A stretch of DNA of 33,601 nucleotides from Burkholderiales bacterium PBB2 (GTDB taxonomy: Bacteria; Pseudomonadota; Gammaproteobacteria; Burkholderiales; Burkholderiaceae_C): contig NKIM01000051.1 of NCBI GenBank assembly GCA_002255955.1, positions 1-33,601 on the forward strand. The letters run 5' to 3'. A program made the position numbers and the translations under genes. The notes under the pieces were generated by a model. It saw only the letters and a list, made by a program, of their open reading frames with translations. It was not told the origin of the DNA and ran no database searches. Shown piece by piece: positions 9,443-25,894 of the stretch (position 1 is the stretch's first letter; each line of letters opens with the position of its first letter).

Positions 9443-12007
<2,565 letters not shown>

Positions 12008-12052
12008 CGAGCAACAGCCGTTGCGGTATCTAGTTCAATTCAACCCAACCAC

Positions 12053-12082
12053 AAGCCCGGCCCCAAGCCGGGCTTACTTTTT
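12053..12082 (+). terminator. gyrB terminator
   Basis: Perfect 9-bp stem AAGCCCGGC (12053-12061) with GCCGGGCTT (12067-12075), a 5-nt loop, then T5 at 12078-12082. It closes the dnaA-dnaN-gyrB transcription unit. The 130 bp beyond it (12083-12212) turn AT-richer and hold an inverted repeat TACCG/CGGTA (12151-12155/12166-12170) but no convincing promoter. Confidence 0.9.
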
Positions 12083-12212
12083 GACGAATCATCTGCGACG
12101 TCGGTCGCCAACATAGCACTGGCGCGCTTGCAATGCGGAAGTCTCCCATCTACCGTATCGTCGCCCGGTATAGACTCGCTTACGAATAGGGTAGACAAGC
12201 AAAGGGGGGCAT

Positions 12213-13133
12213 TTGTATTTCAATAGCGAACCACTTGGCGCAGTTGCACTCGCTAAGACTTACCGAGCAAATGGCTTGATGGCCGGAGACGACGGATGGG
12301 GTCCTGATCTGTGGAGGTTCGTTGCCAACCAGGTTGAATTCAAGTTTGATTTAAGCCCGCTGCGACAAGAAGAGCTTAGTCAGGTAATACATAACCGAAT
12401 CGTTAATTACACGGTCTCCAGACTCATTGTTGGTGGTTGCCAAGCAATATCACCCGTACGCAATATTCCAGATTTTCGCCAAGAACCACTTCAACAATTA
12501 GTAGACGATATTCTCGACATTGATGATCAGCGCCGTGATCGCATCGTATGGTACCTGGATAGAATTTGCCCAAGAATACTAAGCGGCGCAAACTCCCTAT
12601 CACGAAAACAAAATAGTTTTATTAGAGGGTTTGCGGCGCAGCGAGATCATCGTTGCTACATTTGCGGAAACTTCCTTCATTATCGATCTAAGCCTTACGG
12701 CAATGACAACTGGGACCGAATTGATGAAATTCGTCGCAACCGTGCTTTTGAGATTGAGCACGTCTGGTGTCAAGCGAGAGGCGGACAGAAGAACATTGAA
12801 AACTTAGCCGCCTCCTGCAACCGTTGCAACAAACTGAAAGCAGAACTTCTATCACCTGTTGACTTGCCTATTGAGGCCTACGTAGGTTCACCATCCAGTG
12901 AATCAAGCGTAAAGACTTTTCTGAATGCGCAACTCCGTTTTTCCCTCATGTGGTACCAAGCAGGACGCTGCGCAACATGCAAGACACCTTTCTTTGAACT
13001 AGAAGATGAGGTCTTAGTTGTGGCATTAAGGGAGCGGGAGCAGCCTTATCATTTCTTTAACATGATGATTTGTTGCGCAGCCTGCGATTCAAGTAAGAAA
13101 CTACAGGGGGTCAAATTCCGTGAACCAATATAA
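12213..13133 (+). CDS. HNH endonuclease-like protein with two zinc clusters
   Basis: A 306-residue protein. An N-terminal helical region (1-140) of unknown role is followed by an HNH fold: C148-x2-C151, then IEH at 181-183, N197, and C202-x2-C205-N206, the usual order of zinc cysteines and catalytic His. A second unit, C253-x2-C256 and C288-x2-C291-D with the spacing N-x4-C-x2-C, looks like a degenerate HNH copy without the catalytic His. HNH proteins cut DNA or RNA; the target is unknown. The start is TTG at 12213, preceded by a strong AAGGGGGG; the first ATG is about 57 nt further in. The stop overlaps the next gene by 14 nt, so they act as a pair. Codons are visibly AT-richer than in gyrB, indicating transfer. 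Confidence 0.8.
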   Translation: MYFNSEPLGAVALAKTYRANGLMAGDDGWGPDLWRFVANQVEFKFDLSPLRQEELSQVIHNRIVNYTVSRLIVGGCQAISPVRNIPDFRQEPLQQLVDDILDIDDQRRDRIVWYLDRICPRILSGANSLSRKQNSFIRGFAAQRDHRCYICGNFLHYRSKPYGNDNWDRIDEIRRNRAFEIEHVWCQARGGQKNIENLAASCNRCNKLKAELLSPVDLPIEAYVGSPSSESSVKTFLNAQLRFSLMWYQAGRCATCKTPFFELEDEVLVVALREREQPYHFFNMMICCAACDSSKKLQGVKFREPI

Positions 13134-14319
13134 AGCCTTTAGAGTTAAGCAACAACCGGACTCAACGGTTGAATTTCTTCTGTTCGTCGCACCTGCAAGG
13201 GATGTCAACAACTGGGCACATGCCGATGACATTCGGCTTGACAAGAATAGTGTTCAACGTGAATTAGTTGAATCTCGCTGGCGTCAAGTTATGCGATTCT
13301 TTAAAGCCGACCCGCAGCGAAATGTCATCCCCACTAATGTGACCCTGGCATTCGACAGCGAACTTAGACGCGTGGAAAACTTAGCCGACCTGGACGACGG
13401 GCAGCCCGGATACTTCCTTTCTGACAACGGTGATCAAACATGGGAATTAGTATTTCCTGACAGTGTTCGGGATCAAACTTACGTTATCGATGGGCAGCAT
13501 CGTCTTAAGGGAATGGCCGCGCACACGCTACCCATAAATGTTCCTATCGCCTTGCTTATGAATTTACCCCCTCTCGAGCGGGCATTTCAGTTTGTTACGA
13601 TCAACAATAAATCACACAAGGTCCCGACTGACAATCTAAAGGCGCTCATTCATAACTTCTCAGATATTGAGGAGGGTTTACGAGCTCGGCTATCCAATGC
13701 GTCCATTACGTCGCCACGATTCGCCACGCACATAGACGTAATGAATGAACAAACCGACAGTCCGTTCTATAAAATGGTGGCCTGGGTGAACAATAGGCAC
13801 GCCGACGGTAAGCAGGTCATTGCGCCCACTGCCATTGAAAACGCCCTTAAAGAAATTACTCGAGCCTTTCCTGAAACAAAGGAAGATGACGCGGATGCGA
13901 TACTTGTTCTTTCCAGTATTTGGAAAGAAGTTTTCAGCAACTATGGGATTACCATAGCCAACATAGAAGACTACAAAAATCTCACTACCAAAGCTGTAAT
14001 TCAAACAATTACAAATATGATTGTTGAGAGAATTGTCAAAGAGCGGGATCCGGCATTTTCACCAGGACCAATAACAAGGGCCGGGGCGAGCGAGGCGCGC
14101 GAAACAGCGATAAAGTTAATTCGAGATATCCCCGCAGACTTCTGGAAAGAGGAATGGTCGCTCCGAAGTCTCGACACATCGGCCGGGCGAGCAATCATCA
14201 TTAATAGCATTCGCCAGCTAAAAATAAACCTGGTCAATCAGCCAAATGAAAATTGGCGAAGCGCTGTCCAACTCTATGGTGGAATAGAAACTGACGGCGA
14301 AGCTCAAGAAGACGTCTAG
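13120..14319 (+). CDS. DGQHR-domain protein (DndB/DpdB-like)
   Basis: A 399-residue protein with the signature VIDGQHRLKG (DGQHR at 124-128), followed by LPPLERAFQFVTINNKSHKVPTDN, typical of the DGQHR-domain family. The family includes DndB of phosphorothioate systems and DpdB of 7-deazaguanine systems. These are ParB/sulfiredoxin-fold proteins tied to DNA modification, with poorly known biochemistry. The start is GTG at 13120 behind an AGGGGG; it overlaps the HNH gene by 14 nt. It is clearly divergent from the two DGQQR proteins further right (DGQHR, not DGQQR, and a longer C-terminal half). The AT-rich base use matches the HNH gene, so both probably arrived together. It may be a restriction partner or regulator. 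Confidence 0.8.
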   Translation: MNQYKAFRVKQQPDSTVEFLLFVAPARDVNNWAHADDIRLDKNSVQRELVESRWRQVMRFFKADPQRNVIPTNVTLAFDSELRRVENLADLDDGQPGYFLSDNGDQTWELVFPDSVRDQTYVIDGQHRLKGMAAHTLPINVPIALLMNLPPLERAFQFVTINNKSHKVPTDNLKALIHNFSDIEEGLRARLSNASITSPRFATHIDVMNEQTDSPFYKMVAWVNNRHADGKQVIAPTAIENALKEITRAFPETKEDDADAILVLSSIWKEVFSNYGITIANIEDYKNLTTKAVIQTITNMIVERIVKERDPAFSPGPITRAGASEARETAIKLIRDIPADFWKEEWSLRSLDTSAGRAIIINSIRQLKINLVNQPNENWRSAVQLYGGIETDGEAQEDV

Positions 14320-14352
14320 TTTTCTCGATTCAACATCACCGGAGGTATACGA

Positions 14353-14383
14353 GGGTCGGTCAATTTATTGAACTGACCCTTTT
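14353..14383 (+). terminator. Terminator of the HNH-DGQHR unit
   Basis: GGGTC (14353-14357) pairs with GACCC (14375-14379), and an imperfect inner stem GTCAA/TTGAAC encloses a short AT loop. TTTT follows at 14380-14383. It lies between two convergent genes. Confidence 0.5.
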
Positions 14384-14399
14384 GCACCCTTAGTTGCGG

Positions 14400-15482
14400 T
14401 TACCCCACAAAGGGCTTGTCCGATCTCTTTATTGCCTTTTTTTGCTCTCTGACAAGATGTTTGGTGAGTAAATCTATATCTGCAGGTGTATTTTGTATAG
14501 CATTCCATGGTCGATCATCGCTATCGCCAAATCGCCACTTACCGCTTGTCCAAGCGGTTGCTACTTTGAGCTCCAACAAATGAGGAATAAAGGCGTCGCG
14601 GTTTAACGATCCACTAGAAGCATAGATTAGCTCCATAACGAAGCCCATAGAAACCAAACCTGCGCCATGACGAAGCCTCGAAGTCTTAGGTGTATGTCCA
14701 TCCCATTCAGGGCCGAAAACTCTTTTGACGGCCCAGAAGAATTCACTGATGAGTCGAAATGCTCTATCTTCGTAGTCGTCGTGTTTGATAAATTCTCGGA
14801 TGGCGCCATCAGCTGATGAATTATTCACCAGCTTCTGCATCGCGGTATCGCTTAGAACCCCCTTCGGATTCGTGTGTTGACGAATTTCACCGCGCAGTGC
14901 TGACGTTGAATCGAAGTTCAGTCGATCTACTATTCGTGCAGCAAACTTTCGGGCCGTGAAGCGCTCTGGCAACCCCTCCACCGTCGGCAACAGTTCGTAA
15001 ATCAAAGTTTTAGGCAGTGGTCTTGTGTTGTTAATCAGTACGAACTGTTGGCGCAACTCGTTGTAGTCGCGACAGATGAGGGCTGACACAAAGACTTGAA
15101 AGCCCGGCTTGTCTAAACCAGCCAACGCACTCAGCCGCTGCTGTCCATCGACGACGAAGCCTGGTCTCTCATTGGTCGCATTGATCTTGACTTCGACAAT
15201 GCCATCGCCGAGATCCTTGACCTTCACATCTGAACCTTCGACAAACGCAACGATCACAGCATTCGGTAGCAGCGCGTCCTCGCGTGCAAGGTAGTCACGT
15301 ATGTCCTTAATGTGCGCCGCCACCTGATGCCGCTGAAAACCTTTCAAATGGCCTTGATCGTCGCGGCCGACGCGGTCAATCTCCGAAAAAGCAAGCACGT
15401 CTTTTGGCGCTGCGGCGAACGAAAAGACCTCATGGTCGGGAGCTTGATTGGCACGAACGGCCTTGAAGCGAAAGACGCTCAT
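14400..15482 (-). CDS. DGQQR-domain protein, second DpdB-like paralogue
   Basis: A 360-residue protein with FVVDGQQRLSAL (DGQQR at 112-116), an upstream GHLKGFQRHQVAAHIKDIRDYL segment and INNTRPLPKTLIYELLP, the same pattern as the gene on the other side of dpdA. DpdB works with DpdA to place preQ0 in DNA in Salmonella Montevideo, and its exact role is unclear (established knowledge). Its ATG overlaps the dpdA stop as ATGA (15479-15482), so it is coupled to dpdA and last in the operon. It shares the LKGFQR, DGQQR and PLP-x-LI-ELLP blocks with the 16777-17907 gene, so the two are paralogues. The base composition is intermediate between the two halves of the island. Having two such genes with one dpdA is unusual. 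Confidence 0.8.
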   Translation of the reverse strand: MSVFRFKAVRANQAPDHEVFSFAAAPKDVLAFSEIDRVGRDDQGHLKGFQRHQVAAHIKDIRDYLAREDALLPNAVIVAFVEGSDVKVKDLGDGIVEVKINATNERPGFVVDGQQRLSALAGLDKPGFQVFVSALICRDYNELRQQFVLINNTRPLPKTLIYELLPTVEGLPERFTARKFAARIVDRLNFDSTSALRGEIRQHTNPKGVLSDTAMQKLVNNSSADGAIREFIKHDDYEDRAFRLISEFFWAVKRVFGPEWDGHTPKTSRLRHGAGLVSMGFVMELIYASSGSLNRDAFIPHLLELKVATAWTSGKWRFGDSDDRPWNAIQNTPADIDLLTKHLVREQKKAIKRSDKPFVG

Positions 15483-16780
15483 TTACTACTTCTCTTGTCC
15501 AAAGTTCTTTGCACATGTCGGTGATAGACGCCTAGGTTGTGCATTCCCCGGCGTTTGTTTCTGTTGCTGGCGCGGAAGATGATCACTTCGACACCCGCTT
15601 GCTTGCAGATGTCGCATCCGCAGCGCTGCCATGGCTTCTCTTCTAGCGTTCGGCGGATCAGATCGCGCTGTTTGACCAGTGCCTTGGCCTCGGCAGCGTC
15701 GCCGCCCGCATTGCCCTTGATCAGAAAGTGCTGGTACTCGGTGATCGCGTCGAGCGTGCTATCCAGGGCCTTGCCCGTGCGGTGATATGCACGCATGGCA
15801 TCAAGAGCCAAGCGCTCCATCTTCTGCAGCGCCTCTGAACTAAATCGCCCTTCTTTGATGCCTTGCATCAGGCGCGGATTCTCTAGCGCCTGAGGAATGC
15901 GAACGGCAGCGTAGTAGTCCAAGCCGCCGCCTGGTTTCTCAAGGTAGTAGTTTTTCTTGGCATCCTTGAAGGCAGCCAACAGCGGCGAAGTCGAGTCAAA
16001 GCTGGTGACGCCGTAACCCGTGAACTCGTGAATGGTGTCGGCTTTGGCAAAGCCAAGCAGGTGAATATGGGTCTCTGGCTTGATGACGAGGCGCAATTCC
16101 TTGAGCACTTGGTGAATGACCTCCACCTTCAGCGGCACCAGGCCCCCGACCGCCAGGTAGCGATAGCCCATCTTCTCCAGATCAACAGCTGCCTGCGCCA
16201 TGCTTTGAGGCGACCATCCTTGGATGGCGCCGAGCGGCTCGAAGGGCCAGTCCTCCGCCTCGGTGATCTTCAGGAACTCCCGCGCATTGGCCTGCGTGAT
16301 GTCGTAGCGATCATGCACGCCGGGCGGCATGGCGCTGCGCGGAGGGTTGCTGGTGTCGCAGTCGAAGATGATGTGGTCAGGCGAACAGCCGTGCGTGAAG
16401 CAGGCATCCGTGTAGAACTCCATCACCTCCATCGGCGAGTAGGCCGGGCGCGGATGTTCAACATAGGCAAATGCACCGCAGTCGCCCATCAGCATGTTGT
16501 CTTTGAACTTGGGGCCGCCATAGCGAAGAAACTTGCGGGCGCCGTCGCGCAGCATGCGCTGCTCTTCAGACGTCGAGTAACGCACCTTGGAATTGGCCAC
16601 GCCTTCGGCCTGCCTGACGGCACTCATGGACACCAACAACCCGTCATAGGGCGCGGGGTCCATCAACTCATGGGCGTACTGATCGTCCCAATAGCGCTTG
16701 TGGCCCGGAGGATTCCTGTCGCCCAGAAAGTCGTAGGCCGGGTCAACATAGTCTTGCGTGTCGGAATAGAGAAACTTCAT
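15479..16780 (-). CDS. dpdA: DpdA: DNA guanine transglycosylase of the tRNA-guanine transglycosylase family
   Basis: A 433-residue TGT-like enzyme. Visible hallmarks are MGDCGAF (98-104, the place of TGT's Asp-Ser-Gly-Gly-Phe with Asp100), GAIQGW (185-189), VGGLVPLK (211-218), and HLLGFAKADT with TSFDSTSP, where Asp262 is the likely nucleophile. A C-terminal zinc site C387-x-C389-x2-C392 ... H414-N-L matches TGT. The central sequence differs from housekeeping Tgt (no DSGGFQ, no FDCVxPTR), as expected for DpdA, which exchanges guanine in DNA for preQ0. Its ATG overlaps the upstream dpdB stop and its stop overlaps the downstream DGQQR gene, both by 4 nt. A QueD gene nearby supports preQ0 as substrate. 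DNA rather than tRNA as target is inferred from family and context. Confidence 0.88.
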   Translation of the reverse strand: MKFLYSDTQDYVDPAYDFLGDRNPPGHKRYWDDQYAHELMDPAPYDGLLVSMSAVRQAEGVANSKVRYSTSEEQRMLRDGARKFLRYGGPKFKDNMLMGDCGAFAYVEHPRPAYSPMEVMEFYTDACFTHGCSPDHIIFDCDTSNPPRSAMPPGVHDRYDITQANAREFLKITEAEDWPFEPLGAIQGWSPQSMAQAAVDLEKMGYRYLAVGGLVPLKVEVIHQVLKELRLVIKPETHIHLLGFAKADTIHEFTGYGVTSFDSTSPLLAAFKDAKKNYYLEKPGGGLDYYAAVRIPQALENPRLMQGIKEGRFSSEALQKMERLALDAMRAYHRTGKALDSTLDAITEYQHFLIKGNAGGDAAEAKALVKQRDLIRRTLEEKPWQRCGCDICKQAGVEVIIFRASNRNKRRGMHNLGVYHRHVQRTLDKRSSK

Positions 16781-17907
16781 CGGTTTGACGCACTGGCGTA
16801 CATGCGCACCAGGGTGTCCTGTAGTCGTTTGATGTCGCGCGTGGTGCTCTGGATTTCATTCCAGGGCATGCCCAGGGCCTCCCAGACTCCCTTGGTCCAG
16901 CGGCAGTCGGGTGCCACCTTCTCCAGTTCCTTGCGCACGGTTCTGTAGTCCTCGTTCGAGCCCGGCAGACGGGCGTAGATGCGATCCATCAGCACTCCCA
17001 TGGCCTCGATGCCTGCCGAGTGCATCAAGCGGCTTTGGCGTGGATCCTTGCCCCAGGCCTCAGGGAACACATCGCGAACAGCCGACCAGTAGGTCAGGAG
17101 GATCTGGTACATCGCCTCAACATCGGCACCGTCGCGACCGGTTGCCTTGTACTGGGCCAGGGCACCCAAGGGGTTGTTCATGCTGTTGCGGATCACCGCG
17201 ATCACTGCGGTGTCCGTGATCACGGCCGAGCGCGTGGCCTTGTCGGAGACTCGCTTGATCAGCTTGTGGAAGGGCGAGTTCGGATCCCGATTCAGCAGGT
17301 TGCAGATCTCAGACGGGATCTTGCGAGTCGCTAGTTCACGGGGTAGCAAGATGCCCCGTGTTTCGGGCAGCAACTCGTTGATCAAACGCATGGGCAAGGG
17401 CTTGGCCTTGTTCACCAGGATGAACTGCTCGCGCTGGATCTCGAGACTGTCCGACACGAAGCCGACCACCGGCACCGGGATGGACTTGTTGACCGCCTGC
17501 GCCAGCGCCAGAGATCGCTGCTGGCCATCGACGATCCAGGCTACCCGTTGCCCTTGGGCATAAACCGGAATGGTCAGGGTGCCGGACTGGGAGATGCCCT
17601 CGTCTCCGGTGGGCTTGCTGCCGCGCGACGCGGCAAACCTGACCTCGGGCGACATCGCCAGAATGATGGAGTTGGGGAAAAGGACGCTGCCTTGGTTCAG
17701 GTAGTCGACGATGCCTTTGACGTGGGAACGAATCTCGGGCCGCTGAAACCCTTTCAGCACATCGCTATCGTCCCGCTCCACCCGACTGATATCGGCGACG
17801 CGCACGATATCGGATCCCTTGATGAAGAAGGCGTAGACATCCAGACCGTCGGCCTGGGTGGTGTGCAGGGCACGAACCACGATCTCTTGCTTCGTCTTGG
17901 TCGCCAT
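16777..17907 (-). CDS. dpdB: DGQQR-domain protein DpdB
   Basis: A 376-residue protein with WIVDGQQRSLAL (DGQQR at 127-131), preceded by LKGFQRPEIRSHVKGIVDYL and followed by EQFILVNKAKPLPMRLINELLP. These are the core blocks of the DGQHR/DpdB group. DpdB is needed with DpdA for dPreQ0 formation in Salmonella Montevideo; a ParB-like nucleotide-binding role has been suggested for the fold. The start is ATG at 17907 (MATKTKQ), 2 nt after the stop of the upstream gene; a longer frame to 17958 overlaps that gene and is less likely. The stop overlaps the dpdA start (ATGA). The proposed partner is DpdA. Confidence 0.82.
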   Translation of the reverse strand: MATKTKQEIVVRALHTTQADGLDVYAFFIKGSDIVRVADISRVERDDSDVLKGFQRPEIRSHVKGIVDYLNQGSVLFPNSIILAMSPEVRFAASRGSKPTGDEGISQSGTLTIPVYAQGQRVAWIVDGQQRSLALAQAVNKSIPVPVVGFVSDSLEIQREQFILVNKAKPLPMRLINELLPETRGILLPRELATRKIPSEICNLLNRDPNSPFHKLIKRVSDKATRSAVITDTAVIAVIRNSMNNPLGALAQYKATGRDGADVEAMYQILLTYWSAVRDVFPEAWGKDPRQSRLMHSAGIEAMGVLMDRIYARLPGSNEDYRTVRKELEKVAPDCRWTKGVWEALGMPWNEIQSTTRDIKRLQDTLVRMYASASNR

Positions 17908-17909
17908 CG

Positions 17910-18875
17910 TCAACTCCGCAATGCATTGGCCTGTTGCTCTTGTTTGAGCCCCAGCCAAAGTTGTCTGAAACGTCCTTGTTCGCAGGCAATGCCCGCACCG
18001 TCACGCAGATAGCGCAGCAGCTTGGTCGAACTGCCCCGGTGTTGCTGCCATTGCTGACGCAAGACATGGATGATTTCGGCATCGTCCAGTTTCTGGCGCT
18101 CGGGCTTAGTCGGGGCGTTCAGCCCTTCCAATGCGGCCAGGACCCTGGAACGAGCCTCGTCCAAACTGGTACCCCGACCGCTCAGTGCCTTGGCAAAGTG
18201 CAGCAGGCAGCGTTGCGGAAAATCGCTGGTGGTGCCCGCAAAGCCCGCGGCTTCCAGACGGGTGTCATAGGGCATCAGGCAAGGACGTAAATGCTCGGGC
18301 AGGACCTCATGGCTCTTGCTCGACGAGAAGATGCGCAGCTTGCGACGAGCAACGCCTGCATCCACTGCGCTGAGTTCGGTGGCCACCATGGACAGATAGG
18401 TCGATGGCATCGCGATCCAGACCTGCTCGATGTGGTCATTGCCAACCAAGCCGGACAGCGGGTGGCCTTGATCCCGCGCAGCGGTCAGAGCCTGCCACCA
18501 CGCTTGATCCGTCACGCCCAGACGGCGCAGCGTAGGTGCAATAGAGCCGGCACCGGCGCTGATGGTCAGGTCATATGCAGGCACATTTTCGTCGCCCGAA
18601 ACAAGACCCAGCCCTGCGGACACGACGAACAACTCGGCGTCAATCATGTTGGCAGCAGCTTCTGCCTCTCGGAAAGCTCGGCCCTGATAAAGCGCTCGCG
18701 CCGGCGTTCTTGCTTGCTGGCCTTCAAGAGCGTCCCGCCAGCGCAGGCTCATCTCTTGCACGGAGCACACGGACTCACTACTGCGGAGTGCGGCACGACC
18801 ACCCAGTTGCACCTTTCGACTCGTGCAACTGGTGACCACTGCGTAAGGTTTGGATTGCAGTTTTTGCATGGGCAT
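17910..18875 (-). CDS. DUF6884/YaaA-like protein leading the dpd operon
   Basis: A 321-residue protein. The N-terminal half shows TSCTSRK (15-21), ARALYQGRAF (59-68) and LFVVSAGLGLVSGDENVPAYDLTIS (82-106). This pattern of S-C-x2-K/R-x, A-x2-LY-x-G-x2-F and S-A-x2-GL-x ... YD is what I know from DUF6884 and related YaaA-like proteins. The C-terminal half is helical with no recognised motif. It is the first gene of the operon, 2 nt before dpdB. In Salmonella a third gene, dpdC, converts dPreQ0 to the amide dADG; this protein holds an equivalent place, but homology to DpdC is not established here. ATGs at 18875 and 18869 are both possible starts. Confidence 0.6.
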   Translation of the reverse strand: MPMQKLQSKPYAVVTSCTSRKVQLGGRAALRSSESVCSVQEMSLRWRDALEGQQARTPARALYQGRAFREAEAAANMIDAELFVVSAGLGLVSGDENVPAYDLTISAGAGSIAPTLRRLGVTDQAWWQALTAARDQGHPLSGLVGNDHIEQVWIAMPSTYLSMVATELSAVDAGVARRKLRIFSSSKSHEVLPEHLRPCLMPYDTRLEAAGFAGTTSDFPQRCLLHFAKALSGRGTSLDEARSRVLAALEGLNAPTKPERQKLDDAEIIHVLRQQWQQHRGSSTKLLRYLRDGAGIACEQGRFRQLWLGLKQEQQANALRS

Positions 18876-18891
18876 CGTCCGGCAACCCGAA

Positions 18892-18942
18892 TTACTGCAG
18901 GAAAATGCGCGATTGTAGTCTTGCAGTAAGTCATCGCTGACT
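18892..18942. promoter_or_regulatory. Inverted-repeat operator and promoter upstream of the dpd operon
   Basis: A perfect 8-bp inverted repeat, TTACTGCA (18892-18899) and TGCAGTAA (18922-18929), flanks a good minus-strand -10, TACAAT (plus-strand 18912-18917). The arms are 30 bp apart centre to centre, about three helical turns on one DNA face. A second inverted repeat AGTCA/TGACT (18929-18933/18938-18942) adjoins it. This looks like a repressor site for the operon; no -35 is convincing and no regulator gene is nearby. The remaining divergent region (18943-19039) holds nothing clear except AGGAG before queD. Confidence 0.5.
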
Positions 18943-19048
18943 TAAGCACTAGTCCCTAGAAAATGCTCAGCCATCAGCGACTACCTTTGCATCAGCCATC
19001 GTCTTACCTCCGTCGGCAACAGCTCCGATCGAGGACACAGGAGTCGCC

Positions 19049-20155
19049 ATGAGCACCCGCCAACTTGTATCCGCGTCCGTAGGCTTCGAGGCCGCCAGAC
19101 AGGTCACCATCCTCCCCGAAGGCCATCGCTCACGGTCGCTCCATGGGCACAGTTTCTTGGCCACAGTCCGTGCCGATCTGCCGGTTGGCTGGGGGCCATT
19201 CCCAGGTGGCGAGGTGGAGGAACTGCGTCGCCGCCTAGAGCGTTGCGCCAAGCCCCTGGACTACGCACTCCTGAACAACACCCTCACGCAGCCAACCGAT
19301 GAGAACCTGGCTCGATGGATCAGGCATGGCCTCGAAACAGACTTCGGTGTACCTGGCATTCAACAGGTGGGCATACAGAGTACCCAGCATTCGGGTGTGG
19401 ATCTGGACGCCTCAGGCCAGGCCCATGTCTGGCGCCGCTACCGCTTCCAAGCCGCCCACAGGCTGCCCAATGTGCCGATGGGCCACAAATGCGGCCGCAT
19501 GCACGGCCATGGCTTCGAGGTGATCCTGCACGCCAATCAGGACTTGGGCGAGCGTGACCTGAGCGTGGATTACGACCATCTGGACGAGGTCTGGGCGCCC
19601 TTCCACATGCAGTTGAACTACCAATGCCTGAACGAGATCGTAGGTCTGGACAATCCGACCAGCGAGGTGATTTCGGCCTGGCTGTGGCAGCGCCTCAAGC
19701 CGCAGTTGCCAGAACTGTCCTGGGTGACCGTCTACGAGACGGGCTCTTGCGGCGCCAATTTCGATGGCAGCCGCTACCGCATCTGGAAGGAGATGACCTT
19801 AGATTCGGCGGTCCGACTCAAGCATGCATCGGCGGACAGTCCGCTGCGCGCTATCCATGGTCACCCCTACACCCTGCGTTTGCATCTGAGCGCAGAACTC
19901 GATGCCATGATGGGTTGGACAGTGGACTTCGGCGATGTGAAGACCTTGTTTGATCCGATCTTCAAGGCTATCGATCACCAACCGCTCTACGAGATTGCCG
20001 ACTTAGCGGACGGCGACACGGCCAGCCTGGCCGCATGGGTGCTGGCCAAGGGCCGTGCTGTGTTGCCGCAATTGGACCGAGTCGATGTGTATGAAACCCG
20101 TGGGTCGGGGGGCATCGTCAGCACTAACGCGGATGATGAGTTGATCCCTGTTTGA
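19049..20155 (+). CDS. queD: Triple-domain QueD/6-pyruvoyl-tetrahydropterin-synthase-like protein
   Basis: QueD makes 6-carboxytetrahydropterin, an intermediate to preQ0. A normal QueD is about 120 residues; this 368-residue protein is three copies in a row. Domain 2 (about 128-248) is closest to QueD: AAH137RLPNVPMGHKC148, H152GH154 and E230. Its Asp-His dyad, however, is N190-Y191. Domain 3 (about 249-368) keeps H259, H270/H272, D309-H310 and E349 but has no Cys. Domain 1 (about 5-120) has R17 for the zinc His, S28 for Cys, D71-Y72 and no Glu. The family's triad forms between subunits, so domains 2 and 3 could together make one site. The start is ATG at 19049 with AGGAG upstream. It is divergent from the dpd operon and probably supplies it with preQ0 precursor. 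Confidence 0.85.
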   Translation: MSTRQLVSASVGFEAARQVTILPEGHRSRSLHGHSFLATVRADLPVGWGPFPGGEVEELRRRLERCAKPLDYALLNNTLTQPTDENLARWIRHGLETDFGVPGIQQVGIQSTQHSGVDLDASGQAHVWRRYRFQAAHRLPNVPMGHKCGRMHGHGFEVILHANQDLGERDLSVDYDHLDEVWAPFHMQLNYQCLNEIVGLDNPTSEVISAWLWQRLKPQLPELSWVTVYETGSCGANFDGSRYRIWKEMTLDSAVRLKHASADSPLRAIHGHPYTLRLHLSAELDAMMGWTVDFGDVKTLFDPIFKAIDHQPLYEIADLADGDTASLAAWVLAKGRAVLPQLDRVDVYETRGSGGIVSTNADDELIPV

Positions 20156-20261
20156 CTTGGGTCGAGCTAGTCCAAGATGCGCCAAGATCTACTTGGGTAC
20201 GGGAGTTCATGACATGGCGAAATGCCGACCGTTTGAGCGCTTGTTCAGCGGAGCGCGCGGG

Positions 20262-20289
20262 TTGCCCCCGGTGCCAGGCCGGGATAATC
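20262..20289 (+). promoter_or_regulatory. Possible promoter before the small-protein gene
   Basis: TTGCCC (20262-20267) and ATAATC (20284-20289) are separated by 16 bp and lie 40 bp before the ATG at 20330. It is the only plausible pair seen in the 20156-20329 gap. No terminator was found after queD. Confidence 0.3.
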
Positions 20290-20329
20290 CCGCCCATTCC
20301 GCCTCCCCCTTCAGCCGCCTTCTAGCCTC

Positions 20330-20692
20330 ATGACCGACTCCCCCCTCCCCGACCGCCTGCACGCCCTGCTCGACGAGCGCGTGTTCAACTTTGCACAGGC
20401 GGCGCAGCGGCACTTCAAGACCAATGACTTGGTGGTGTTGCTGGATTTCCGCGCCGAGACGCCGGAGCTGGAGGCGCTGCCGCGGCAGGCGCTGGCTGAG
20501 GCGGAGGAGCTGTCGCTGGAGGTGAAACTGAAGCTGGCGCGGCCGGCCTCGGCCTTGAGCCCGGTGTTCGGTGCGCCCGAGCAGGTGTTCTGGTTTGTGG
20601 TGATCCACGAGGACGAGGATGCCGACTGCGGCGCCATCAGCGCGGCGGTTCAGGGCGCGCCGTTTGCGGACAAGCTCTCGGCCCAGGGCTGA
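20330..20692 (+). CDS. Small hypothetical protein
   Basis: A 120-residue acidic soluble protein without signal or membrane segments. It has two beta-like stretches (NDLVVLLDF and QVFWFVVIHEDEDADCG) separated by an acidic helix (EALPRQALAEAEELSLEVKLKLA). I do not recognise the family. Codon use is strongly G/C-ending, like the core genes, so it belongs to the host genome rather than the island. The ATG at 20330 is the first start after the gap. The next gene begins 69 nt later on the same strand. Confidence 0.65.
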   Translation: MTDSPLPDRLHALLDERVFNFAQAAQRHFKTNDLVVLLDFRAETPELEALPRQALAEAEELSLEVKLKLARPASALSPVFGAPEQVFWFVVIHEDEDADCGAISAAVQGAPFADKLSAQG

Positions 20693-21019: not shown

Positions 21020-21137
21020 TGGCTGCGGCTGTCTGGCTGGCGCCAGGGCCTAGGATAGAGGCCTGCGCGCCGTGCTTGCGCGCCTCTTTTTCTCCGGGCC
21101 CGTTTTCTTGACTTCTCTTTCGTCATCCCTGTCTTCC

Positions 21138-21161
21138 TCGGCCCTTTCTTCGGCCCTTTCT
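21138..21161. repeat. 12-bp tandem repeat
   Basis: Two perfect copies of TCGGCCCTTTCT (21138-21149, 21150-21161) lie just before the probable start of the Pls-type gene. They encode Ser-Ala-Leu units if the longer GTG start at 21072 is used. Confidence 0.7.
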
Positions 21162-21206
21162 TCGGCGCCCTCCGCGGTTTTGCCTGCATCGGCCGCCTCG
21201 CCCCCG

Positions 21207-24200
21207 ATGATTCTTCGCGGCCCGGACCGGCCCGAGCTGCTGCGCGGCGAGGTGCTGGCCGATCTGTTCGAGGCCACGGCGCGGCGCCTGTCCGAGCAGA
21301 TTGCCCTGCGCGAGGGCGAGCGTTCGCTGAGCTATGCGGCGCTGGACGCGGCGGCCGACCTTGCGGCTTCGCGCCTGATCGCGGCCGGTGTGCGGCCGGG
21401 GCAGATCGTGGGCCTGTGGATGCCGCGCGGCATGGAGCTGCTGATCTTGCAGCTGGCCATCGCCAAGACCGGCGCGGCCTGGTTGCCCAGCGACGCCGAC
21501 ACGCCGGCCGAGCGGGTGGCCGTGTGCCTGGAGGATGCCGAGGCGGCTGGCCTCCTGACCCCCGCCGCCTGGGCGGCCGAGCGCCTGGACGGCCTTGGCC
21601 GGCCGGTGTGGAGCGCGGAAAGCTTGCTTGCCCCCGAAAGCGCGAGCGGCCCGCTGCGCCGCCGCGAGGGCGCGCTGCCCGAGCACACGGCCTACGTGAT
21701 CTACACCTCAGGTTCGACGGGCAAGCCCAAGGGCATTGCCATCAGCCAGGGCAGCATCTGCCATTTCCTGCGCAGCGAGAACGAGGTGCTGGGCGTGCGC
21801 GCCAGCGACACGGTCTACCAGGGCTTCTCGGTCGCCTTCGACATGTCTTTCGAGGAGATCTGGATCAGCTACCTCGTCGGCGCCACGCTCTGGCTGGCGC
21901 CGCGCGAGATCGCTGCCGACCCCGATGCCCTGCCGCAGGCGCTCAAGGCGCATGGCGTGACCGTGCTGCACGCCGTGCCCACCCTGCTGGCCCTGTTCAA
22001 CCAGGAGGTGCCGGGCCTGCGCCTCATCAATCTGGGCGGCGAGATGTGCCCTGAGGCCCTGGTGGCGCGCTGGGCGCGGCCCGGCCGCCAGGTCTTCAAC
22101 ACCTACGGGCCGACCGAGGCCACGGTCTCGGCCAGCCTGGCCGAGCTGCAGGCGGGCGCGCCGGTCACCATCGGCCGGCCCCTGCCCAACTACCAGCTGA
22201 TGGTGATTGCCGCCGATGTCGAGAACGGACTGCGCTTGCAGCCGCAGGGCGAGACCGGCGAGCTGTGCATCAGCGGCCCCGGTGTGGCGGCCGGTTACTT
22301 GGGCCGGCCCGAGCTGACGGCCGAGAAGTTTTTGCCCAACCCCTGGGCCCAGATGCCGGGTGGCGCCGATGCGCGGCTCTATCGCACCGGCGATCTGGCC
22401 CGCATCGACGAGGCCGGCCAGATCCATTGCCTGGGCCGGGTGGACGACCAGGTCAAGATCCGCGGCTTCCGCGTCGAGCTGGGCGAGATCGAGGCCGCGC
22501 TGGCCCAGCAGCCCGGCGTGGGCACGGTGGCGGTGCTGCTGCGCCGTGATGAAGACCAAGGTTCCGCCCAGGAGCTGCTGATCGCCTATCTGGTGGCGGC
22601 TGACAGCGCTGCGACGGGCGCTGTGCAGCCACGGGCCGCCGACTTGCGCGCCGCCCTGGCCCAGCGCTTGCCGCCCTACATGGTGCCCAGCCGTTTCGAG
22701 TGGCTGCCGGCCATGCCCCGCCTGACCTCGGGCAAGATCGACCGCAACACCCTCAAGGCCCGGCCCCTGCTCGCAGACACGCCGCCCGCAGCAGCCGAAG
22801 ACGGCTCCGACTCCCCGCGCAGCGAGGCCGAGGCCGCGCTGTTCGCCGCCCTGCGCCGCCTGTTCCCGGGCCAGGCCCTGCGCCGCGAGGCCGATTTCTT
22901 CAACGAGCTGGGCGGTCATTCGCTGATGGCCGCGCGCCTGGCCTCGGCCCTGCGCGCCCAGCCGCAGTTTGCCGGCCTGACCGTGCGCCACATCTACCAG
23001 GGCCGCCGCCTGGGTGTGATCGCCGAGGCGATGGAGGCCATGGACGCGGCCCACCAGGCCGCAGCCGCGCGCGATGCCGCCGGCGGCGGCCCCGCTGCGG
23101 CCGCCGATACCCCGCCCTGGCAGCCGCCCTCGGCCTGGCGGCGCTGGCGCTGCGGCGCGGCGCAGGCCCTGGCCGTGCCCTTCTTGGTGGCGCTGCGCAT
23201 GGCCAGCTGGCTGGCGCCGTTTTTCACCTTCCACTTTTTCACCGGCGACCCGGCCGATTCGGTGCTCACCGCGGTGTGGATGTCGGTGGCGGTGTTCCTG
23301 GGCACCACGGTGCTGGAGTTTCTGGTGGCCATGGCCGGCCGCCGCCTGCTGGCCGCGCGGCTGAAGCCGGGGCGCTACCCGCTCTGGGGCCTCACCTATT
23401 ACCGCTGGTGGCTGGCCGACCGGCTGATGGAGGTGGCGCCGGTCTACTTCCTCGGCGGCTCCTCGCTCTACGTGGGCTGGCTGCGCCTGCTGGGCGCCGA
23501 CATCGGCCGCGAGGTGCTGATCGGCTCCATCACCGTGCGCGCGCCCGAGCTGCTGCGCATCGGCGATGGCGCCAGCATCGGCAATGCGGTGAACCTGGAA
23601 AACGCCCGGGTCGAGCGCGGCGAGCTGCTGCTGGGCCGCATCGACATCGGCGCGAATGCCTACGTCGGCTCCTACTCGGTGCTGGAGGGCAACACGGCCG
23701 TGGCCGATTGGGGCCATGTCGAGGGCCAGTCGGCCCTGGCCGATGGCACGCGCGTGCCGGAGCGGCGCGTCTGGGGCGGCTCGCCAGCGCGTGATCTGGG
23801 CGCCTTCGACCCTGTAGGGCTGCGCCCGCGGCCCGAGGTGGGCCGGCTGCAGCGCTGGGGCGAGGCGGCCTTTTTCGTGGCCGGCGCCTTGCTGATCGCC
23901 ACGTTGTTCTTCCTGCCGGTCTTCCCCACCTTCATGCTGATCGACAGCCTGGACACTTTGGAGACGCTGGAAGAATGGCCCTCCATGGCCTGGCTGCAGG
24001 GCGATGTGCTGTGGCTGCAGCTGCTGCGTTACTTCGTGTTCGCCCTGCCGGCCAGCGCGGTGCTGATCGTCATCACCGCCCTGCTCTCGGCGGCCATCCG
24101 CTGGGGCGTGCTGCCGCGCATGACGCGCGGCACATGGCCGGTACACAGCTGGGTGTATTGCAGCAAGTGGCTGGTCAACCAGATCCAGGAATCGAGCCTG

Positions 24201-25298
24201 CAAGGCCTGCATGGCGTGTATGCCACCGTGTTCGCGCCCTGGTGGTACCGCTTGTTGGGCGCCCGCGTGGGCCGCGATGCCGAGATCTCCACCGCCCTGG
24301 GCGTGGTGCCCGATATGCTGACCCTGGGCGACGAGACCTTCATCGCCGACGCGGTGCTGCTGGGCGATGAGGAGATCGACGGCGGCTGGATGACGGTGCG
24401 GCCCACGGTGGTATCGCGGCGCAGCTTTGTCGGCAACGGCGCGTACGTGCCCGATGGCACAACCATCCCCGAGAACGTGCTGATCGGCGTGCTCTCGCGG
24501 GCGCCCGAGGGCGGGCAGATGCAGAGCGGCGACACCTGGCTGGGCACACCGCCCATCAATCTGCCGGCGCGCGAAACGGTGCAGGGCTACCCCGAGCACC
24601 TGACCTTCCGGCCCTCGCCGCTGCGCCGCCTGGGCCGCGGCCTGATCGAGACCTTCCGCATCGTCGCGCCGCATGCCATCGTCATCGCCACCGGCTACAC
24701 CATCGTGCTCGACGTTATGCCCGACGCCAGCGAGGGCCGCTGGGGCTTGGTGGCCTGGGAGCTGACCGAATCGGGCCTGCTCTTCGGCCTGGCCTGCTTT
24801 GTCTTCGTGGCCTTGTTCAAGTGGCTGCTGCTGGGCTGCTACCGGCCGCGCGCCGTGCCCATGTGGACGCCTTTCGTCTGGGTCTCCGAGGCGGCCACCA
24901 ATCTCTACGAGGGCATCGCCGTGCCCAACTTCATGCGCTTTCTGCGCGGCACGCCCTGGCTGCCTTTGGCCTTCCGCCTGCTGGGCTGCAAGATCGGCCG
25001 CGGTGTGTACCTGGACACCACCGACATCACCGAATTCGACTGCGTGCACATCGGCGCCCACAGCGAGCTCAACGCCCTGAGCTGCCCGCAGACCCATCTG
25101 TTCGAAGACCGGGTCATGAAGATAGCCCCTGTGCACATTGGCGAGCGCGTCACGGTCGGCGCGCGCAGCACGGTGCTTTACGGCGCCAGCGTTGGTGACG
25201 GCGCGCGCCTGGGCCCCATGACCCTGGTGATGAAGGGCGAGAACATCCCGGCCGGCTCCGCCTGGAGCGGCTGCCCGGCGGCGCCGCAGGGCGCTTGA
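21207..25298 (+). CDS. Pls-type single-module NRPS with carrier, membrane and left-handed-helix domains
   Basis: About 1363 residues. The adenylation domain shows YTSGSTGKPKG (about 166), FDMSFEE (about 212), YGPTEAT, YRTGD and GKIDRN. A carrier domain follows with GGHSLM and phosphopantetheine Ser near 572. The C-terminal half alternates membrane segments (near 660-710, 887-966, 1160-1215) with three hexapeptide left-handed-helix domains (about 762-852, 1016-1100, 1258-1361). This is the NRPS terminal-domain architecture of epsilon-poly-L-lysine synthetase (Pls), which joins one amino acid into a polymer without a thioesterase. By my alignment to GrsA the pocket reads D-M-E-H-I-L-T-V-S-K; Glu at 239 hints at a basic amino acid. 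The start is ATG 21207; a GTG at 21072 adds a Ser-rich stretch with atypical codons. A phosphopantetheinyl transferase follows directly. Confidence 0.85.
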   Translation: MILRGPDRPELLRGEVLADLFEATARRLSEQIALREGERSLSYAALDAAADLAASRLIAAGVRPGQIVGLWMPRGMELLILQLAIAKTGAAWLPSDADTPAERVAVCLEDAEAAGLLTPAAWAAERLDGLGRPVWSAESLLAPESASGPLRRREGALPEHTAYVIYTSGSTGKPKGIAISQGSICHFLRSENEVLGVRASDTVYQGFSVAFDMSFEEIWISYLVGATLWLAPREIAADPDALPQALKAHGVTVLHAVPTLLALFNQEVPGLRLINLGGEMCPEALVARWARPGRQVFNTYGPTEATVSASLAELQAGAPVTIGRPLPNYQLMVIAADVENGLRLQPQGETGELCISGPGVAAGYLGRPELTAEKFLPNPWAQMPGGADARLYRTGDLARIDEAGQIHCLGRVDDQVKIRGFRVELGEIEAALAQQPGVGTVAVLLRRDEDQGSAQELLIAYLVAADSAATGAVQPRAADLRAALAQRLPPYMVPSRFEWLPAMPRLTSGKIDRNTLKARPLLADTPPAAAEDGSDSPRSEAEAALFAALRRLFPGQALRREADFFNELGGHSLMAARLASALRAQPQFAGLTVRHIYQGRRLGVIAEAMEAMDAAHQAAAARDAAGGGPAAAADTPPWQPPSAWRRWRCGAAQALAVPFLVALRMASWLAPFFTFHFFTGDPADSVLTAVWMSVAVFLGTTVLEFLVAMAGRRLLAARLKPGRYPLWGLTYYRWWLADRLMEVAPVYFLGGSSLYVGWLRLLGADIGREVLIGSITVRAPELLRIGDGASIGNAVNLENARVERGELLLGRIDIGANAYVGSYSVLEGNTAVADWGHVEGQSALADGTRVPERRVWGGSPARDLGAFDPVGLRPRPEVGRLQRWGEAAFFVAGALLIATLFFLPVFPTFMLIDSLDTLETLEEWPSMAWLQGDVLWLQLLRYFVFALPASAVLIVITALLSAAIRWGVLPRMTRGTWPVHSWVYCSKWLVNQIQESSLQGLHGVYATVFAPWWYRLLGARVGRDAEISTALGVVPDMLTLGDETFIADAVLLGDEEIDGGWMTVRPTVVSRRSFVGNGAYVPDGTTIPENVLIGVLSRAPEGGQMQSGDTWLGTPPINLPARETVQGYPEHLTFRPSPLRRLGRGLIETFRIVAPHAIVIATGYTIVLDVMPDASEGRWGLVAWELTESGLLFGLACFVFVALFKWLLLGCYRPRAVPMWTPFVWVSEAATNLYEGIAVPNFMRFLRGTPWLPLAFRLLGCKIGRGVYLDTTDITEFDCVHIGAHSELNALSCPQTHLFEDRVMKIAPVHIGERVTVGARSTVLYGASVGDGARLGPMTLVMKGENIPAGSAWSGCPAAPQGA

Positions 25299-25303
25299 GC
25301 GAA

Positions 25304-25894
25304 ATGGCCGAAAGTGACGCTCCATTCCCGGTCTGCCTGTGGCCGGAGTGCAAGCCCGCGCCCGATCAGCGCGTGTTCGTGCTGGCGCTGCTCGGGGCTT
25401 CGTCCGGCCGCCCTGAAGCTCGGCTGGATGCCCGCGCCGCCGCCCGCCTGGCCGCGCGCCAAGCTCTGGCCGCACAGCTGGGCCAGCCGCTCGACACGGT
25501 GCAACTCCACGCCCCGCCCGGCCAGCCGCCCCAGGTCCTGGGCCGGCCTGACATCGGCTTGTCTTTCAGCCATGAAGCGGGGATCAGCTTGGTGGCCGTG
25601 AACCTCGACGGGCCGATCGGGGTGGATGTGGTGCAGGCCTCGGCGCCTGACGATTGGCAGGCGGTGGCGCGCGACTATCTGGGGCCGCAGTCCCTGGCCC
25701 TGGGCGCCGCCGGCTTCGCCCCGGCCTGGGCCGCGCTGGAGGCCCGGCTCAAATGCTGTGGCTTGGATCTGCATGAATGGTCAGCCGAGCGCGAGCTGCG
25801 CTTGCTGGCAGCATGCCTTCCGCCGCCTCTGGCCCTGCCGTGTGCGGCGGATCCTTGGGTTGGTGCATTGGCCTGGCCACGATGGCCAGTTTGA
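25304..25894 (+). CDS. 4'-phosphopantetheinyl transferase (Sfp type)
   Basis: A 196-residue protein with GLSFSHEAGISLVAV, PIGVDVV and WAALEARLKCCGLDL. These correspond to the family's substrate-His strand, the metal-binding G-x-D motif and the W-x3-E-A-x2-K motif. It would transfer phosphopantetheine from CoA to the carrier Ser of the enzyme encoded just before it. The start is ATG at 25304, 5 nt after the upstream stop; a TTG at 25295 overlapping that stop is possible. The second metal acid of Sfp (Glu in GIDIE) is Val here (GVDVV), as in some other members, so the metal site may be two-acid. It is shorter than Sfp (about 224 residues). Confidence 0.8.
   Translation: MAESDAPFPVCLWPECKPAPDQRVFVLALLGASSGRPEARLDARAAARLAARQALAAQLGQPLDTVQLHAPPGQPPQVLGRPDIGLSFSHEAGISLVAVNLDGPIGVDVVQASAPDDWQAVARDYLGPQSLALGAAGFAPAWAALEARLKCCGLDLHEWSAERELRLLAACLPPPLALPCAADPWVGALAWPRWPV

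Follow-up and report, generated by a model that had tools for sequence, protein, structure and literature searches.

Ordinary QueD (6-carboxytetrahydropterin synthase) is a homotrimer that joins T-fold domains of separate chains. The Escherichia coli enzyme (structures 4NTK, 4NTM and 4NTN), of the PTPS-I subfamily of COG0720, is built from single-domain chains, and its active sites are equivalent; active sites of the PTPS (6-pyruvoyl-tetrahydropterin synthase) type need residues of neighboring subunits. The closest precedent for the protein described here is the bimodular QueF of Vibrio cholerae and E. coli, as presented in the available part of PMC5372742. Our subject is a three-domain QueD encoded in a 33,601-nucleotide stretch of DNA (the window; positions 1 to 33,601, forward strand, of contig NKIM01000051.1) from Burkholderiales bacterium PBB2 (assembly GCA_002255955.1). 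In contrast to E. coli QueD, it has three nonequivalent fused domains, and only one of its three sites has all of the residues. It seems to represent a familiar enzyme in a conserved form not yet described: we found no published description of a three-domain QueD, although most subscription journals lay outside our search, which makes this weak evidence of absence.

We propose, with a probability of about 0.84, that this protein is a working single-chain QueD, a pseudo-trimeric barrel with one complete site at the interface of domains 2 and 3. Three T-fold domains fused head to tail would close into one such barrel, keeping a complete active site solely at that interface. Domain 2 would hold zinc on H137, H152 and H154 and contribute the catalytic Cys148 and the pterin anchors Glu206 and Glu230; domain 3 would supply the Asp309-His310 dyad, and domains 1 and 3 would otherwise complete the barrel. 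The predicted reaction is that of QueD, from dihydroneopterin triphosphate to 6-carboxytetrahydropterin, and two pseudo-trimers may pair into a dimer, in which six domains would carry two sites.

Three domains and one divided set of active-site residues

The open reading frame (ORF), of 368 codons, is intact from its ATG at 19049 to a stop codon that ends at 20155. Three stretches of the protein matched the Pfam PTPS profile PF01242 (whole-protein E value, 1.3e-51; 174 bits against a curated cutoff of 22.4), and three matched the NCBIfam QueD equivalog TIGR03367 (143.8 bits, above the cutoff of 89.25); the score for the broader TIGR00039 was 108.5 bits, below its cutoff of 125.5. The CxxxHGH motif of QueD, as defined in the accessible text of PMC5041015, occurs once in the protein, at C148. 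This is not an ordinary homo-oligomeric single-domain QueD: there are three domains, and the three zinc histidines, the Cys, the Asp-His dyad and the anchor Glu are all there only as one complete set divided between domains 2 and 3.

We read the site residues of each domain off an alignment to E. coli QueD, whose reference positions we take to be H16/H31/H33 (zinc), C27 (Cys), D70-H71 (dyad), E86 (PTSE glutamate) and E110 (YET glutamate). In domains 1, 2 and 3, respectively, the equivalents are R17/H32/H34, H137/H152/H154 and V255/H270/H272 for the zinc ligands; S28, C148 and L266 for the Cys; D71-Y72, N190-Y191 and D309-H310 for the dyad; E85, E206 and A325 for the PTSE glutamate; and S111, E230 and E349 for the YET glutamate. 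An earlier note, made by eye from this sequence, had claimed three fused QueD domains with complementary loss of catalytic residues. The three PF01242 stretches agree with the first claim, and every residue that it named was found where it had been placed; it did not mention V255 and A325 in domain 3, where two further residues, the first zinc His and the PTSE glutamate, respectively, have been lost.

Scanning genome contigs gave 87 confirmed relatives; we kept the best 80, all of which span the three domains, as loci. By record labels these 80 are mostly from Beta- and Gammaproteobacteria, with one metagenome-assembled genome labeled as a cyanobacterium (L055). Of 200 genomes from the family to which the window belongs, 36 had a near-full-length three-domain match. 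Searching with a profile of the protein family gave strong matches (E ≤ 1e-60) for 61 of the 399 genomes searched at the level of the order and for 19 of the 369 at that of the class, and matches at E < 1e-100 for 14 of 398 genomes of the phylum. Our alignment comprised 186 nonidentical proteins: the window protein, 79 of the 80 loci, the second copy from the same genome, 13 proteins from the phylum scan, 2 from the family scan, 38 from the order and class scans, and 52 others. Their identity to the window protein ranged from 31 to 83% (median, 55%).

Because the domain 2 and domain 3 residues are kept in all 186 proteins while the losses fall elsewhere, each protein retains just one complete residue set, split between these two domains. 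Domain 2 always has H137, H146, C148, H152, H154, P203-T204-S205-E206 and E230, and domain 3 always has D293, D309 and H310. Domains 1 and 3 both lack the first zinc His in 186/186; the Cys is never present in domain 3 and is present in domain 1 of only 10 proteins. The dyad position of domain 2 is occupied by NY (54 proteins), HH (31), DH (26), NH (15) or other pairs, and that of domain 1 most often by DY (102) or DH (40), so that leftover D-H dyads persist in both, whereas the domain 3 dyad shows no loss at all. Only five columns of domain 3 are invariant (G271, W290, D293, D309 and H310), two of them the dyad; if the invariant columns of this domain were placed at random, the probability of both dyad positions being among them would be 0.0012. 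Domain 2 has 21 invariant columns, including H137, C148, H152, H154, E206 and E230. The complementary loss seen in one sequence thus extends to the whole alignment, with the complete set surviving solely as the zinc, Cys and Glu residues of domain 2 plus the Asp-His of domain 3. An intact triad in one domain with random loss elsewhere is not the pattern that the alignment shows.

When 16 representatives of each domain were placed with 17 ordinary QueD sequences in a midpoint-rooted tree, domains 1, 2 and 3 each formed one clade (support, 0.996, 0.728 and 0.992, respectively), with domain 2 grouping with the ordinary enzymes. Such domain-wise clades indicate that the three-domain form probably arose once, before the sampled lineages split.

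Domain interface and assembly

We computed interdomain covariation as mean-field couplings on the 186 aligned sequences. Between position sets that we picked after inspecting the coupling list, 16 of the top 100 interdomain couplings linked the Cys/zinc loop of one domain to helix 1 of the next, and none linked it to the previous domain; in a set reduced at 70% identity the counts were 11 and 1, and the largest excess in 20 block-shuffled controls was 5. Couplings run from domain 3 to domain 1 as well. A loop directed at helix 1 of the next domain implies that the domain 2 loop faces the domain 3 dyad. The AlphaFold2 prediction for the monomer is confident (mean predicted local distance difference test score [pLDDT], 92.3; predicted template modeling score [pTM], 0.90), and in it strand 4 of a domain is followed after only 4 to 5 residues by strand 1 of the next. 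With VIA-align, the pairs of domains 1 and 2 and of domains 2 and 3 superpose on the tandem T-folds of uricase, and the former pair superposes on GTP cyclohydrolase IB. The earlier note had gone on to suggest a single-chain pseudo-trimer with one composite site built from domains 2 and 3. Its composite site gains support from the residue split in 186/186 proteins together with the direction of covariation, and its pseudo-trimer from the compact predicted chain, the T-fold superpositions and the couplings between domains 3 and 1.

The composite site might instead form between chains, with domain 2 of one and domain 3 of another meeting through a swap or at a barrel-barrel interface, so that a chain would not be self-sufficient. 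In PTPS, a dimer of trimers, three monomers do contribute residues to a site (PMC4790348 and PMC7546909, accessible portions), and a monomer prediction cannot reveal contacts between chains. We nonetheless consider this arrangement unlikely: the couplings fit a ring of the domains in chain order that closes from 3 back to 1, and the short linkers make swapping less likely.

Function and queuosine context

A queE gene lies on the same strand within 300 nucleotides downstream of the three-domain gene in 70 of the 80 loci. In the PBB2 genome we found only two PTPS-domain genes, both three-domain: the window copy and a copy on another contig (C82), which is followed 33 nucleotides after its stop by a queE gene (28% identity to E. 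coli QueE over 222 residues). The queuosine context is therefore provided by the C82 copy and the 70 loci, and not by the window copy. Among 28 further genomes, of unstated completeness, hand-picked from those behind the 80 loci, 21 showed no PTPS domain besides the three-domain protein, making it the only candidate QueD found there. QueC and tRNA-guanine transglycosylase were present in 29 of 29 genomes (the 28 plus PBB2). Given the adjacency of queE, the sole PTPS domain in 21 genomes and the presence of QueC and the transglycosylase throughout, the three-domain protein is very probably a true QueD.

The same observations bear on whether the protein is a pseudoenzyme or has an altered chemistry specific to the dpd island (a 7-deazaguanine DNA-modification island) in which the window copy lies. 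Catalytic residues are indeed missing from two of its three sites, but all of those of QueD survive across domains 2 and 3 in every protein, and in 21 of 28 genomes, all with QueC and the transglycosylase, no PTPS member other than this type was found. As for a dpd-specific chemistry, DpdA accompanies the gene in only 9 of 80 loci, against the 70 with queE. We regard both variants of this explanation as very improbable. We give almost no credence to the idea that the losses are random drift, with one domain alone still building ordinary homotrimeric sites: domain 2 keeps a D-H dyad in 26 proteins, but in the other 160 no domain combines a full zinc/Cys site with a D-H dyad, and the domain 3 dyad never varies.

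Several points weigh against our proposal of a self-contained chain with one site. Besides the post hoc choice of coupling positions and the unstated completeness of the 28 genomes, averaged mutual information between loops and dyad regions (95 sequences) gave no clear signal, and two-domain Foldseek alignments to uricase were poor (TM score, up to 0.35 of the query). There is no queE beside the window copy, and none was detected in 10 of the 80 loci; five of these 10 have at most 1.5 kb of downstream sequence, and the other five (L032, L033, L052, L079 and L082) have 5.6 to 10 kb. A separate additional PTPS domain occurs in 7 of the 28 genomes. Two points concern the domains assigned to filling the barrel. 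E349 is kept in only 143 of 186 proteins, and domain 3 may do more than that; so may domain 1, whose only fully invariant residues are H32-G33-H34 (codons 19142 to 19150; 186/186), the rest of its zinc site being lost.

The invariant HGH of domain 1, along with the more Arg-rich loops of domains 1 and 3 (on average, 1.8 and 1.6 Arg in the five residues before the HGH position, compared with 1.0 in domain 2), led us to a further, speculative reading, in which the two incomplete interfaces have turned into sites of another kind and this QueD is allosteric, one of its sites working and two sensing. What were once zinc sites may then bind the triphosphate of the substrate, a pathway product or another regulator. 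We think this doubtful, if conceivable.

The window copy and its dpd island

Features of the locus are collected in Table 1. DpdA, DpdB and DpdC are encoded beside the three-domain gene, placing it in a dpd DNA 7-deazaguanine system. PADLOC gave no match to the DpdD-DpdK restriction genes among the seven window proteins scanned, other ORFs being outside the scan. Two dpdB genes flank dpdA (14400 to 17910), with a third DGQHR protein close by, and extra dpdB copies in dpd islands are reported in the available text of PMC11888242. The HNH-type gene adjoins the DGQHR gene on the same strand.

Table 1. Positions in the window of the three-domain QueD gene, its predicted functional codons and the neighboring dpd genes
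Feature	Position	Strand	Evidence
Three-domain QueD (6-carboxytetrahydropterin synthase), 368 aa	19049..20155	+	PF01242 x3, TIGR03367 x3
T-fold domain 1 (residues 4-119), degenerate: R17, S28, S111, dyad D71-Y72; H32-G33-H34 kept	19058..19405	+	Alignment, conservation
T-fold domain 2 (residues 125-240): keeps zinc ligands, Cys and the two anchor Glu; N190-Y191 in place of the dyad	19421..19768	+	Alignment, conservation, superposition
Codon of His137, predicted zinc ligand	19457..19459	+	186/186
Codon of Cys148, predicted catalytic Cys	19490..19492	+	186/186
Codons of His152-Gly153-His154, predicted zinc ligands (CxxxHGH motif)	19502..19510	+	186/186
Codon of Glu206 (PTSE motif), predicted pterin anchor	19664..19666	+	186/186
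Codon of Glu230 (YET motif), predicted pterin anchor	19736..19738	+	186/186
T-fold domain 3 (residues 244-359): gives Asp-His dyad; without Cys, first zinc His, PTSE Glu	19778..20125	+	Alignment, conservation
Codons of Asp309-His310, predicted dyad of composite site	19973..19978	+	186/186
dpdC	17910..18875	-	PADLOC DpdC, E 9.3e-94
dpdB copy 1 (start approximate; open frame to 17958)	16777..17910	-	NCBIfam DpdB, E 3.5e-142
dpdA, DNA 7-deazaguanine transglycosylase	15479..16780	-	NCBIfam DpdA, E 2.4e-160
dpdB copy 2	14400..15482	-	NCBIfam DpdB, E 3.7e-112
DGQHR-domain protein of dpd island	13120..14319	+	TIGR03187, E 2.5e-22
HNH-type protein of dpd island	12213..13133	+	Weak PtuB/IscB-like matches only

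In three congeneric genomes the interval from gyrB to the ORF at 20330 (12007 to 20330 in the window) holds other genes and has no match to the three-domain protein; the window gene thus probably belongs to an inserted dpd module, and the interval, variable within the genus, may be an insertion hotspot. By eye, the congeners carry there a protein resembling an S-adenosylmethionine-dependent methyltransferase (two genomes) or a set resembling a type I restriction-modification system (one genome). We also considered a phage- or plasmid-borne origin of the gene and rejected it: no record in the plasmid or phage collections covered at least 80% of the protein, and the best segments among 70 loci found on viral contigs were about 0.3 to 0.5 kb, the length of one domain.

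DpdA homologues adjoin the three-domain gene at the nine loci mentioned above, and locus L033 has the same divergent layout as the window. The window protein is 84% identical to the protein of one locus (L007) and 80% identical to the C82 copy, both queE-followed and outside dpd islands, and these are closer to it than the nine DpdA-linked copies (60 to 66%). In a separate tree its placement is uncertain, the three nearest nodes having support values of 0.149, 0.896 and 0.215. The two copies in PBB2 may divide labor, the one beside queE serving tRNA queuosine and the window copy supplying preQ0 for the dpd island.

Elsewhere in the window, ORF 21072-25298 looks by eye like an adenylating protein of the nonribosomal peptide synthetase type with a carrier domain and left-handed helix repeats; the short ORF after it (25295-25894) may encode a phosphopantetheinyl transferase.

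Comparison with known enzymes

Like the three-domain QueD, uricase and GTP cyclohydrolase IB have tandem T-folds in one chain, but they share only 4 to 10% sequence identity with it in the VIA-align alignments and catalyze other chemistry than QueD. The dpd islands of PMC11888242 resemble the window in having dpdA, dpdB and dpdC with a PTPS/QueD gene nearby. The accessible text of that source reports, from GATOR-GC, PTPS genes in 78% of dpd islands, gives no domain counts and does not mention a three-domain QueD, whereas here such a protein is paired with DpdA in the window and nine other loci.

If our proposal is correct, in this family the ring became one chain and only one site was retained, and zinc, Cys, dyad and anchor residues became changeable one copy at a time, which is impossible in a symmetric enzyme. 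For annotation, the sole PTPS-family protein in some genomes would be their only candidate QueD, even though two of its domains look inactive when taken alone.

In the available part of PMC5372742, bimodular QueF shares with the three-domain QueD its pathway, the T-fold superfamily, domain duplication, complementary loss and an interdomain site within one chain. It differs in being a nitrile reductase with two domains and no canonical tunnel, where the present protein has three domains, predicted to form a pseudo-trimeric ring; the QueF motif given there, E(S/L)K(S/A)hK(L/Y)(Y/F/W), is found in none of the 186 three-domain proteins, which are not bimodular QueF enzymes. Bimodular QueF acts later in the same pathway, and the parallel would mean, if our reading is right, that a similar route was taken twice.
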